Source of the DNA: Desulfovibrio sp.
GTDB lineage: Bacteria > Desulfobacterota > Desulfovibrionia > Desulfovibrionales > Desulfovibrionaceae
DNA: 64,000 nt
Direction: 5' to 3'
Assembly: GCA_031284485.1 (NCBI GenBank)
Contig: JAISZT010000099.1
Coordinates: forward strand, 1-64,000
Positions 9,597 through 63,886 of the stretch are shown here, piece after piece. Each line of letters starts with the position of its first letter. The stretch's first letter is position 1. The notes beneath the pieces are model-generated. The model saw only the letters and a list, made by a program, of their open reading frames with translations. It did no database searches and was not told the origin of the DNA. The translations under genes were made by a program, and so were the position numbers.

Positions 9597-10022
9597 TTGC
9601 CTGTAACAAAACCGACAGCGCCACGCCGCAGATTCCGCAAGAGGAATGGAGACCGCGATTCCGGTCCGGTAAGCGCCGCCGACGTTCTGGTTGATGTGCT
9701 CCGCGCCCTTGGGGGCGGGCCGGAAAGAGATCGCCTCTTGCAATTATGGCATAACTGGAACATGGTTCTTGGCCCGGAACTCGCCCCGTTCGCCCTGCCG
9801 CTGGGAAGCAGGCGCGATACCCTGCTTGTGGGCGCTGAAGACGCCATGCTCGCCCAGGAACTGCAACTCCAGTCAGGGGAAATTCTGGAGCGCGTCAACG
9901 CCTTTATGGAATCTCCCTATTTCCGGAAAGTGCGCGTTTCCCTGCAACTCGGCCAGGACGCGCTGCACCCTGCGGGGGAAAATGGTCCGGATGCCCACAA
10001 CTTTTTCCAACTTGAAAAATAA
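9597..10022 (+). CDS. DUF721 / DciA-like protein
   Basis: A 141-residue protein with a basic N-terminus (RRRFRKRNGDRD) followed by a DUF721 domain: ADVLVDVLRALGG, LLQLWHNWNMVLGPELAPFA, and the strand region DTLLVGAEDAMLAQELQLQ. DUF721 includes DciA, the ancestral replicative-helicase loader partner of DnaB. The start is TTG at 9597 with GGAG 6 bases before it. It is followed after 9 bases by the SDR gene, so the two are probably co-transcribed. A DciA-type role is inferred from the domain only. Confidence 0.75.
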   Translation: MPVTKPTAPRRRFRKRNGDRDSGPVSAADVLVDVLRALGGGPERDRLLQLWHNWNMVLGPELAPFALPLGSRRDTLLVGAEDAMLAQELQLQSGEILERVNAFMESPYFRKVRVSLQLGQDALHPAGENGPDAHNFFQLEK

Positions 10023-55588: not shown

Positions 55589-56383
55589 CTATTTCTTACT
55601 CTTTTTCCGTAATTGCGCAATGCGCTTGTCTATAACCGCAGTATTGGGGTAAAAATCCCGCGCAAGCTGAAACTGCTGAAGAGCGTCGTCCGTTTTTCCA
55701 AGCTGCTCCAGGGCGTCGGCCAGCAAATAACCGGTCAGTCCGGCAAGCTCGCCGTCCGCTTCGGCGTCAAGAATCTGCAAGGACATATCCGCCGCTTCCT
55801 GCCAGCGCTGCCGGCCGATGTTCAAATCCGCCAGATCATACGTGCACATAATTTTTTCATTATTGGGCAGATGAAGAGCAAGACACTGCTGCAGTACGCC
55901 CTCACCGGCGTCAAAGCGGCGCACCCTGAAATGCGTCGCCGCAAGGCGGCGATATCCAAAAACAAGCTCTTCCGACGAAAGACCGGACAGGCCGATATAG
56001 GCGCTCCAGACATTCGCGCTTCGGTCGTGACGGTGCAGTTCCTCGGTAATGACGCCCATGCGTTCAAGAATGCTTTTTGTTTTGTCGTCGCTGTCGGCGA
56101 ATTCTTCCAGCATAACCTCAAGGTATTCGAGACTGGCGAGCGGCTCCACGGCATGGGCGTTTGTAGACACAAGCAGCATGTTCCAGGCTTCCCAACGCCG
56201 ATCCGCAAGCTGCTCTTCGCGCAGACAACGGCGCAGCAAACGTTCGACCAGTGGCCAGTCTCGCTCGGCGACAGCCGCGCGGGCAGCCGACAAATCATCG
56301 CCCGGGGGCGCGGCCTGATCACACGCGGCAAGACAAAGGGTCAGGCCCAGCAGGGCGGCGGCAAACAGGCGATCAATCCGCAT
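55589..56383 (-). CDS. TPR-repeat lipoprotein downstream of gyrA
   Basis: A 264-residue exported lipoprotein: the signal sequence [13 protein letters not shown] carries a lipobox with Cys near residue 20. The body is a helical solenoid with TPR-like repeats ([62 protein letters not shown]). Start chosen at ATG 56381-56383; another ATG is 9 bases upstream, and neither has a strong ribosome binding site, so translation is likely coupled to gyrA, which it overlaps by 11 bases. Role unknown. Confidence 0.82.
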
Positions 56384-58880
56384 CAGCGTCATCCGGAGTC
56401 GCGCCGGCCAATTCGTCGGCTTCATCACCGGGGTCACGCCCGGTCTGCCCCCCTTCATCAACCCTGTCAAAGCCCACAACACTCGCGCCGTCGTCCAGAC
56501 GCACCAACATAACGCCCTGGGTGGCCCGGCCCTTGCTGCGCACATCCTCAACGCCTATGCGCACTACCTTGCTGGAGGAGGTCAGCAGTATCAGGCCGTC
56601 GTTGTCCCGCACGGGCATGGCCCCAACCACGGCCCCGGTTTTCGCCGTAACCTTGAAATTGATAATCCCCTTGCCGCCGCGCGACTGCAAGCGGTATAAA
56701 TCAACTCTGGTGCGCTTGCCATACCCGTTGGCCGAAATGGAAAGAATTTCCGTGGTCTGGTCCGCGTCCTTCAGGATAACTCCGGCCACCACTTCGTCAT
56801 TGCGGCGCAGGGCAATACCCTTGACGCCGGCGGCCACACGCCCCATCGGCCGCATATCCCGGCAGGAAAAGCGTATGGCGATGCCCCCGGCCGTGGCCAG
56901 CACAATATGACTGTCCTCGCGGATGGGGCGCACAAGCACAAGTTCATCGTCTTCCCTCAAACCAACAGCCATAAGGCCTGTTTTCCGGCAGCGCGCATAC
57001 AGGGAAGCGGCGGAGCGCTTTACCATGCCGCGTTTTGTGATGAACAGAAAATATTTGTCTTCGGCAAAAGCGCGTACCGCCAGCACCGTGGTGACCCATT
57101 CGCCTTCTTCCAGAGGCACGAGATTGTTGATGTGCGCGCCCCGGGCCGTACGGCGGCCTTCAGGAACCTGATGAGCCTTGAGCTGGTGCATGCGGCCCTT
57201 GTTGGTGAAAAGGCAAAGATACTGGTGATTGGTGGTGGTCAGAAATTCCTGCACATAGTCGTCTTCCGAGATGTTCAGGGCCGCGATCCCCTTGCCGCCG
57301 CGCTTCTGCTGGTGATAATTTTCCAAATTCGTGCGCTTCATGTAGCCGCGCCGGGACAGGGTGATCACCACTTCCTCGTCGGCAATCAAATCTTCAATAT
57401 CAATGCCGACAAGGTCTTCGGTCAGCACTTCCGTGCGCCTCGGGGTGGCAAAAGCCGTGCGTATCTCGGCGATTTCACGCTTTATCTCTCCGCGCAAGAC
57501 TTCCGGATTGTCCAGCACGGATTTGTAAAATTCGATTTTCAGCAAAAGTTCCTTGTACTCGTTAAACAGTTCTTCGCGCTGCAACCCGGTCAGACGCTGC
57601 AGACGCATTTCCAGAATGGCCCTTGCCTGAAGTTCGGACAGGGAGAATGTCTGCATCAAACCGGCGCGGGCTTCATCGGGGTTCGCCGAAGCCCGTATCA
57701 GAGCCACAACGGCGTCGATATTTTCTATGGCTATTTGCAGTCCTTCGAGAATATGCGCCCGTGCCTCGGCTTTTTCCAGATCAAAGCGGGTGCGGCGGAT
57801 GACGACCTCCCGCCGGTGATCCAAAAAACAGACCAGAGCGGACTTCAGAGTGAGCAACTGGGGGCGATTGTCCAGAACTGTGAGCATGTTGATGCCGAAG
57901 CTGCTTTCCAGAGGCGTGTACTTGTACAGAGAGTTGATGATAATGTCGGGGATGGCGCCGCGCTTCAAATCAATAACAATGCGGATGCCCGTGCGGTCGG
58001 ATTCATCGCGCAAATCCGTAATGCCGTCAATCTTGCGGTCGTTCACCAATGCCGCAATCTTTTTCACAAGGGAGGATTTGTTCAGGGCATAGGGTATTTC
58101 AGTGATCACAATGGATTCAAAGCCTTTCTTGCGCTCTTCCAGCTCCACGCGCCCGCGCACTTTTACCGTGCCGCGCCCCGTATGATAGGCGTCGTACAAG
58201 CCTTTGCCGGCATAGACAAAACCGCGCGTGGGAAAATCCGGGCCTTTCACCAGTTCCATGAGATCGTCCACGCTGCAGTGCGGATTGTCCAGCAGCAATT
58301 GCAGCGCGTCGCACAGTTCCCCCAGGTTGTGCGGCGGAATGTTCGTCGCCATGCCGACCGCGATGCCCGATGAGCCGTTGAGCAGCAGGTTGGGCACGCG
58401 CGTGGGCAGCACGGAAGGTTCTTCCAGAGTATTGTCGTAATTCGGCCTGAAATCCACTGTGCCCTTGTCCAGATCCGCTAGAAACTCCTGAGCCAGACGG
58501 GACATGCGCACTTCCGTATAACGCATGGCCGCCGGCGCGTCAGCGTCGATGGAGCCGAAGTTGCCCTGGCCGTCCACCAGCGGGTCGCGCATGGAAAATT
58601 CCTGGGCCATGCGCACCAGGGCGTCATAAACCGCCGAATCCCCGTGCGGATGATACTTGCCGATGACGTCGCCGACGATGCGGGCGGATTTTTTGTGCGG
58701 CCTGTTGTAATTGTTGGCAAGCTCGTGCTGGGCGAACAGAATGCGGCGGTGCACGGGTTTCAGGCCATCACGGGCGTCAGGAATGGCGCGCCCTATAATA
58801 ACCGAAAGCGAATACTCCAGATAGGATTTTCGCAGTTCTTTCTCTATGCTGATTTGCGCTTGATCAAAATTTTCAGACAC
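56373..58880 (-). CDS. gyrA: DNA gyrase subunit A
   Basis: The 835-residue breakage-reunion subunit. RPVHRR-like LKPVHRRIL, the quinolone-resistance region with [17 protein letters not shown] (Ser at the usual resistance position, so wild-type-like), and the active-site Tyr in [10 protein letters not shown] are present. The C-terminal DNA-wrapping domain shows repeated beta-pinwheel blades with the GyrA-box QKRGGKG. The start is GTG 58878-58880, with GAGG five bases before. It lies 85 bases downstream of gyrB. Confidence 0.98.
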
Positions 58881-58965: not shown

Positions 58966-62516
<3,551 letters not shown>

Positions 62517-62650
62517 AGTATAATCCTTGTAATTATAATGTGGTTTTTTGTATCTAACCAAACAAACCCTTTTGTATTGTTACATTTTTTATGAACCTTC
62601 CGGGCTTGTGAAAACGAACACCGGGCACGGGGGCAGGGCATCTTTTTTTT

Positions 62651-63745
62651 TCACAGGGCGACCTGCTCCAATTGTGTTATCATATTGTGCATACTTTCGT
62701 TACTAATTAATAATTGTTTAATTTTATTAACGGCATAAATAACAGTACTGTGATCCTTGCCGCCAAAAACCCTGCCAATTTCCTCATAGGAAAGTTTGAG
62801 TCTGCGTCTGCAGATATACATGGCGGTCTGCCTCGCCATGACGACATCCGGTCGACGTTTGCCGTGCACTATGTCTTCAGGCAGCACATTGAAGGCCTGG
62901 GAAACTTTTTCCATAATAGCATGATAATTTTCAGGAATATTAACCCCTCCGCTGCGAATTATATTTTCCATGTCGGCTGCTGCCGGAGTTTTGTCATACA
63001 CGGCGATAAAGGCTTTAATTTTCAGTATCAGCCCGTAGAGCAAACGAAATCCCGCGCATCGCCGGGCAAGAAACAGGCGCTGCTCCCTGCCGAGAGTAAT
63101 TTCATGCTGCTTGCAAAGCGTTTGTATATAACGCAAACGCACTTCCATGTCAGGTTTCATCAATTCAACGACAAGCCCTCTTTCCAAGCGGGAACACAGG
63201 CGTTCTTCCAGTTTTTTTATCTCGTTGACAGACCCGGCGCAGGCAAAAACCATTTGGGGGTTTTTATCCGGCGGCAAACGCAAGCAGGCGTCAATGCATG
63301 TTGCAAGCTGCTGCTGACAGGACGTGTTATTTACCAGTTCCTGTATATCGTCTAATATAAGTACATCATATTTTTTCCAAAAAATATCGTGTTTTTGTAA
63401 TATATATGTATTTTCCGTACAAAAACGTACGGCACTTTGAAAAATAATTTTTTTGGTCTTTTTGGCAAATTCCGCGGCAACAGTTTCCAATAAATGTGTT
63501 TTTCCCGTGCCGTCAGCGCCGCACAATATAAAGGGATTATATGTTTCTTCAGGTTTTTGATCCACAACTTTCTTTGCTAAAGCAAGGGGAAAGGCATTTT
63601 TAGCATTAGTAATAAAATCTTCAAATGTTTTATTTTTTAGTATTGTAAGTACGCTTCTTTGCCGTTTCTTTCTGTTTACAATCAAATACGTCGCCGCCAG
63701 TCGTCTGGCCAAAGACAACTTTTTTGAAGTAGATTTCGTTTTCAT
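62651..63745 (-). CDS. dnaA: Short DnaA (AAA+ and DNA-binding domains only)
   Basis: A 364-residue initiator-type protein. After a basic tail of about 40 residues come the AAA+ domain with FNPFILCGADGTGKTHLLE-like Walker A (GADGTGKT, 76-83) and Walker B VLILDDIQ (128-135), the arginine-finger region LCSRLERGLVVEL, and domain IV with GKRRPDVVMARQTAMYI and GGKDHSTVIYAVNKI. Domain I, about 80-100 residues that load DnaB, is missing: an in-frame TAA lies at 63770-63772 and only 141 bases separate the ATG from the next gene. The RELEGAL motif is reduced to RLLYGLI. It is the first gene of the dnaA-dnaN-gyrB-gyrA block. Confidence 0.9.
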   Translation of the reverse strand: MKTKSTSKKLSLARRLAATYLIVNRKKRQRSVLTILKNKTFEDFITNAKNAFPLALAKKVVDQKPEETYNPFILCGADGTGKTHLLETVAAEFAKKTKKIIFQSAVRFCTENTYILQKHDIFWKKYDVLILDDIQELVNNTSCQQQLATCIDACLRLPPDKNPQMVFACAGSVNEIKKLEERLCSRLERGLVVELMKPDMEVRLRYIQTLCKQHEITLGREQRLFLARRCAGFRLLYGLILKIKAFIAVYDKTPAAADMENIIRSGGVNIPENYHAIMEKVSQAFNVLPEDIVHGKRRPDVVMARQTAMYICRRRLKLSYEEIGRVFGGKDHSTVIYAVNKIKQLLISNESMHNMITQLEQVAL

Positions 63746-63886
63746 ATTTTTTTGCCCTACAAACAAAGATTAATTCTAGCCTAATTTTCCGGGGGAAACA
63801 AGCTCTGAAAAAATATTTATAGATTGCTGATTTTTATGAAAAACCTCCAACTGGACAAGAGCTTTTACGGGGGTTATAGTGGGCAA
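63746..63886. other. Divergent intergenic region upstream of dnaA
   Basis: An AT-rich 141-base stretch between dnaA and the exported-protein gene. I found no exact DnaA box (TTATCCACA or TTATNCACA) here or in the 134 bases between dnaA and dnaN (62517-62650). An origin in this neighbourhood is expected from the gene order but not visible as a box cluster. Confidence 0.4.

Follow-up and report, generated by a model that had tools for sequence, protein, structure and literature searches.

The window, by which we mean the whole 64,000-nucleotide stretch of Desulfovibrio DNA analysed here, contains a gene of the dnaA type, dnaA-1, located 5' of dnaN, gyrB, and gyrA (Table 1). A divergently oriented peptidase gene starts about 140 bp upstream of dnaA-1, and dciA is situated about 53 kb from it in the same window. 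The gap between the stop codon of dnaA-1 and dnaN (window positions 62562-62650) is about 83-114 bp long in most genomes of the order Desulfovibrionales; its length is steady although the flanking genes diverge strongly.

Table 1. Genes and sequence features of the window
Feature	Position	Strand	Remarks
dnaA-1	62651..63745	minus	DnaA paralogue without domain I; ATG 63745 gives 364 aa
dnaA-1, alternative start	TTG 63766	minus	Possible; gives 371 aa
In-frame TAA stop 5' of dnaA-1	63770..63772	minus	
dnaA-1, N-terminal tail	63635..63745	minus	Short, basic; stands where domains I-II would be
dnaA-1, AAA+ domain	63164..63634	minus	PF00308
dnaA-1, Walker A GADGTGKT	63497..63520	minus	
dnaA-1, arginine-finger codon	63188..63190	minus	R193 (TTG numbering), equivalent of E. 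coli R285
dnaA-1, domain IV HTH	62720..62920	minus	PF08299; box-reading residues ARQ and GGKDHST intact
dnaN	61365..62516	minus	From likely ATG; BLAST against relatives
gyrB	58966..61365	minus	
gyrA	56373..58880	minus	
dciA	9597..10022	plus	PF05258 helicase operator, 7.7e-17; housekeeping across the order
Exact TTATCCACA	61223..61231	plus	Inside gyrB; sole exact copy within contig positions 60000-72000

A sequence-only reading of this DNA had described a dnaN-linked DnaA without domain I, an in-frame stop just upstream, the Walker A motif GADGTGKT, an altered RELEGAL motif, and a distant DciA-like protein. All of these features were recovered in our analysis. Pfam profiles identified the AAA+ domain (PF00308, 1.1e-25; 91 bits against a cut-off of 23) and domain IV (PF08299, 2.6e-25; 88.7 bits against a cut-off of 31.5) in the DnaA-1 protein, and no match to PF11638 (DnaA_N) was obtained. 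The RELEGAL position is occupied by FRLLYGL, with the sensor II arginine retained; the residue comparison revealed that Walker A/B, sensor II, and the arginine finger are all intact. Between the ATG and the AAA+ domain there are only about 37 residues, many of them Lys or Arg, and this tail shares just 26% identity with that of the sister species. In the AlphaFold model, a disordered tail (pLDDT <50 through residue 31, TTG numbering) is followed by the AAA+ and HTH domains. The model has the fold of DnaA domains III-IV (Z 24.0 to 1l8q; Z 23.1 to 8btg), and the nearest structures after DnaA are Hda chains (Z about 20). The protein misses the equivalog cut-offs of both TIGR00362 (240.7 against 343.9) and Hda (62.1 against 194.8), and it possesses domain IV in addition. 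Among the features of DnaA membership, the AAA+ domain, domain IV, and the place beside dnaN-gyrB are present, while domain I, the H/B motif, and a sufficient TIGR00362 score are lacking.

Domain I, the N-terminal part of DnaA-1, occurs in a diverged form in most relatives. It was aligned to the canonical domain I profile by hhalign (94.5%, E 7.7e-8), and the top structural match of its model was 4tps_B, the complex of DnaA domain I with SirA (Z 8.8), while the best unrelated structure reached Z 7.2. A profile built on the relatives' DnaA-1 N-termini as a probe for a remnant gave 70-148 bits on relatives bearing the domain and nothing credible in any of the six frames of the window locus. The DnaA-1 tree shows two losses of domain I. 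One lies in the clade that unites the window genome with G035, G001, G003, and G027 (support 96; five species of one genus), the other in G047/G055.

The genome from which the window originates consists of 138 contigs and is estimated to be 100% complete. The PF00308 search of this genome returned DnaA-1, a second DnaA (DnaA-2), and an IstB above the cut-off; Hda was not found by this search. DnaA-2 is encoded on contig C125, comprises 461 aa, and carries domain I (PF11638, 4e-10), which supports the earlier suggestion that another DnaA copy may supply the helicase-loading function. It also remains below the TIGR00362 cut-off (310.5). Its neighbours, named by reading the sequence, are putative fliW-like and prephenate-dehydrogenase-like ORFs. 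From relatives, 54 DnaA-2 copies were retrieved, none of which lies beside the genuine dnaN; a weak second dnaN-like gene was seen near DnaA-2 in genome G026. The DnaA-2 of one draft genome (L122; G018:C65) is broken into a pair of overlapping frames, 322 and 191 aa long, which is likely a frameshift or a sequencing error. A back-translated DnaA-2 pattern matched only the genus when run across the phylum and was uninformative on the origin of DnaA-2.

Compared with 30 outgroup DnaA from the phylum, chosen by high PF08299 score and nearly all adjoining dnaN, DnaA-1 and DnaA-2 each form one clade (support 100 for both, in trees obtained by short searches). PF11638 scores above the cut-off belong almost exclusively to DnaA-2 across 61 genomes; the DnaA-1 of G039 just passes (24.8 against 24.6 bits). 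DnaA-2 is present in nearly every genome checked, and some genomes carry DnaA-2 alone. DnaA-1 is missing in at least 10 genomes (G015, G029, G030, G040, G045, G046, G049, G053, G057, and G058), many genomes being draft assemblies in which gene absence can be a contig gap. A genome was counted here if dnaN was found, no DnaA occurred in about 1.4 kb upstream of it, and no second PF08299 match exceeded the cut-off. Since it is missing from these genomes, DnaA-1 cannot be indispensable for the order, and its absence also argues against an essential role in initiation throughout the order. The earlier picture of a shortened initiator in the canonical position was right about the absent domain I and misleading about the initiator: DnaA-1 is an order-wide divergent paralogue, absent from several lineages. 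In G029 (98% complete), none of PF00308, PF08299, and PF11638 was detected, with dnaN and an origin-like array being present; this lack of any DnaA domain may be a contig gap. Third ORFs with a DnaA_C domain, 329-364 aa long, were observed in family f4 (G048:C2:144058, G060:C1:3517389, G056:C14:209462, and G056:C5:189392).

Functionally important residues were compared in 54 DnaA-2, 44 DnaA-1, and 30 outgroup proteins. The roles of R285, V211, and R245 in DnaA have been described (PMC5742627). DnaA-1 retains the Walker A lysine (44/44), the arginine finger (42/44), and the box-reading residues Q408 (40/44), D433 (39/44), and H434 (44/44). It has lost the equivalents of V211 and R245 of the H/B motif, and the stretch between Walker A and Walker B mostly comprises 49-52 residues against 57, i.e. 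5-8 fewer. In DnaA-2, V211 is represented by V or I in 53 of 54 proteins and R245 by Lys in 50, whereas the box-reading positions are altered: Q408 is replaced by Asn in all 54, a single Gly is missing, Arg or Lys occupies the D433 position in 52, and H439 is mostly Lys. The arginine finger, the loss of which blocks opening in Thermotoga maritima and E. coli (PMC10316083), has given way to H, Y, Q, S, or L in 41 of 54 DnaA-2. Judged by these residues, DnaA-1 and DnaA-2 have diverged in complementary ways. The finger state of DnaA-2 did not correlate with the presence of DnaA-1. DnaA-2 has Arg in families f2 and f4 whether DnaA-1 is present or not; Gln in f5 genomes, which possess neither DnaA-1 nor any second DnaA; and His or Tyr in most of f1, with DnaA-1. 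An obligate pairing in which one protein provides the finger to the other in trans was not adopted as the main claim, since the finger state is uncorrelated with DnaA-1 presence. This lack of correlation and the dispensability of DnaA-1 in several lineages count against an obligate DnaA-1/DnaA-2 pair.

The position of the origin was approached by reading GC skew in 20-kb samples of three complete genomes. The change from minus to plus skew coincides with dnaN in G060 and also in G045, the latter being a single 3.76 Mb contig without DnaA-1. In G006 it falls between 1.82 and 1.95 Mb, within about 175 kb of dnaN, with DnaA-1 at 1.97 Mb. DnaA-2 is located elsewhere in all three, inside the plus-skew half. 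The origin therefore appears to remain near dnaN, and in G045 DnaA-2 must serve it. GC skew in the window genome was too weak for placing its origin.

The residues of DnaA-1 that read the canonical box TTATCCACA are retained. Scanning contig positions 60000-72000 revealed no TTATCCACA cluster at the window locus. The whole genome contains 20 copies, compared with 6 of the reversed control, and these form no target cluster. Upstream of dnaN, TTATCCACA occurs 11 times against 4.2 expected (44 upstream regions). With this mild excess in relatives and no cluster in the window genome, a TTATCCACA cluster at dnaN as the target of DnaA-1 was rejected. The tandem pair TTATACACATTATACACA was noted in the window genome (G000:C45:169-186).

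Three congeners without DnaA-1 beside dnaN (L166, L167, and L171; genomes G030, G015, and G029, respectively) contain an array of AATGTTCSWAACT 0.7-1.1 kb upstream of dnaN. The copies are mostly about 20 nt apart, with minus-strand copies followed by plus-strand ones. The motif was discovered on the same sequences where it was first counted; in a separately run scan for spaced pairs, 4 of 61 genomes matched, against 3 single control matches, and three of these four are the congeners lacking DnaA-1, with the array adjoining dnaN. The array is origin-like and AATGTTCSWAACT is a candidate DnaA-2 box, but its connection with DnaA-2 is no more than a lead because AATGTTCSWAACT is absent from the window genome.

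We regard it as probable that DnaA-1 is a box-binding accessory initiator or regulator at the ancestral position, while DnaA-2 unwinds the origin and loads the helicase in trans. From the retained and lost residues we infer the following partnership. DnaA-1, a divergent, domain-I-less paralogue still at the ancestral dnaA-dnaN-gyrB position, would bind and probably hydrolyse ATP, oligomerise via the arginine finger, and recognise DnaA boxes of the classical type. Recruitment of DnaB through domain I would not be possible for it, and the residues for holding the melted origin strand (H/B) are lost. DnaA-2, full-length and separately encoded, would recruit DnaB together with DciA, hold the melted strand, and act in trans at an origin still near dnaN. 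Bound to boxes at promoters or in the vicinity of the origin, DnaA-1 would modulate DnaA-2, either in mixed filaments with it or as a regulator. Without the tasks of domain I and the H/B motif, which DnaA-2 may perform, DnaA-1 would therefore act on the DnaA-2 complex from its boxes, as an accessory or a regulator. The absence of DnaA-1 from at least ten genomes, the uncorrelated finger state of DnaA-2, the lack of a TTATCCACA cluster at the window locus, and the weak GC skew of the window genome weigh against this reading.

Alternatively, DnaA-1 could act outside the initiation complex, as a regulator that titrates boxes, represses genes such as dnaN-gyrB, or presents an Hda-like finger to the ATP of DnaA-2. 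We consider this possible, though doubtful. Such a function agrees with the retention of the ATP site, finger, and HTH without the helicase and single-strand residues, with the loss of DnaA-1 in several lineages, with the lack of Hda in the PF00308 search of the window genome, and with the position of Hda chains as the closest structures after DnaA. The TTATCCACA copies, however, are in excess over the control without a target cluster, and finger-less DnaA-2 occurs both with and without DnaA-1.

It is improbable that DnaA-1 represents the ancestral dnaA in decay, left almost without function after DnaA-2 took its place. A decay would fit the graded series from domain I present, through its two losses, to an absent gene, as well as DnaA-2 in nearly all genomes checked. 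However, reading frames are intact in the 44 aligned DnaA-1 copies (several at contig edges), and the catalytic and box-reading residues are near-invariant. In the five closest DnaA-1 pairs, dN/dS is 0.07-0.20 for the AAA+ domain, 0.03-0.09 for domain IV, and 0.11-0.71 for the N-terminal part. Constraint on domain IV is slightly weaker among members of the clade without domain I (dN/dS 0.15-0.24, at high dS). By these estimates, DnaA-1 is under purifying selection in the AAA+ domain and domain IV, and its N-terminal part is least constrained.

It is very unlikely that DnaA-1 is the sole initiator and that DciA loads DnaB onto it despite the missing domain I. In favour are the place of DnaA-1 beside dnaN and that of dciA in the same window. 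The earlier proposal that DciA compensates for the missing domain was rejected: DciA is no special compensation, because it is encoded in 41 of 41 genomes whatever their domain I state. Moreover, a DnaA-2 with domain I exists, the H/B residues are gone from DnaA-1, and some genomes have only DnaA-2. An assembly or sequencing error that separates an upstream domain I by a frameshift, named in the sequence-only reading as the contrary outcome, has practically no probability: most relatives carry domain I in this gene, but no upstream remnant exists in any of the six frames, five congeneric species of one clade share the loss, and the divergent peptidase gene begins about 140 bp upstream.

A broader, tentative and rather unlikely proposal is that Desulfovibrionales possess a split initiator, in which DnaA-1 would contribute classical box reading and the finger, and DnaA-2 domain I, single-strand binding, and an altered box. 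Where DnaA-1 is absent, finger-less DnaA-2 would initiate alone, in three congeners at an origin rebuilt with a AATGTTCSWAACT array. The usual view of DnaA is that of a single, near-universal initiator, and annotation and origin finding equate it with the dnaA gene beside dnaN. Here, two ancient forms of DnaA occur throughout an order, their losses are complementary, and it is the copy at the textbook place that is missing from some lineages. If DnaA-2 with a Gln finger does initiate alone, it would be a natural exception to the rule, based on E. coli R285A and T. maritima R251A, that open-complex formation requires the arginine finger. Genetic manipulation is feasible in some cultured strains of Desulfovibrio. 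A search of the open-access literature yielded no paper describing two DnaA proteins in Desulfovibrio.

DnaA-1 resembles the DnaA of E. coli, B. subtilis, Aquifex, and Thermotoga (8btg, 1l8q/2hcb, 2z4r) in the AAA+/domain IV fold (Z 23-24), ATP site, arginine finger, sensor II, and canonical box-reading residues. Unlike these proteins, it has no domains I-II and no V211/R245, possesses a shorter insert between Walker A and B (ISM region), scores under the TIGR00362 cut-off, and is accompanied by a second DnaA. In domain content it equals the laboratory truncation of E. coli DnaA to domains III-IV, which opens oriC in vitro and fails to support replication (PMC5448010). That truncation keeps the single-strand residues and is not viable, whereas DnaA-1 is natural, selected, and coexists with a full-length paralogue. 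Hda/HdaA are likewise DnaA-like AAA+ proteins with a finger and without domain I, but only DnaA-1 has a full domain IV.

More than one DnaA per genome is also known from Chlamydiae (DnaA1 and DnaA3), which are likened here by description, not sequence; DnaA3 was described as confined to Chlamydiae and was grouped with transcription factors (PMC4989314). DnaA-2 is resembled by the DnaA of T. maritima, in which domain IV has NRxH without GGRD and the boxes are non-standard 9/12-mers (PMC10316083). The latter protein, however, has retained an arginine finger, R251, on which it depends (PMC10316083), while most DnaA-2 lack the finger.
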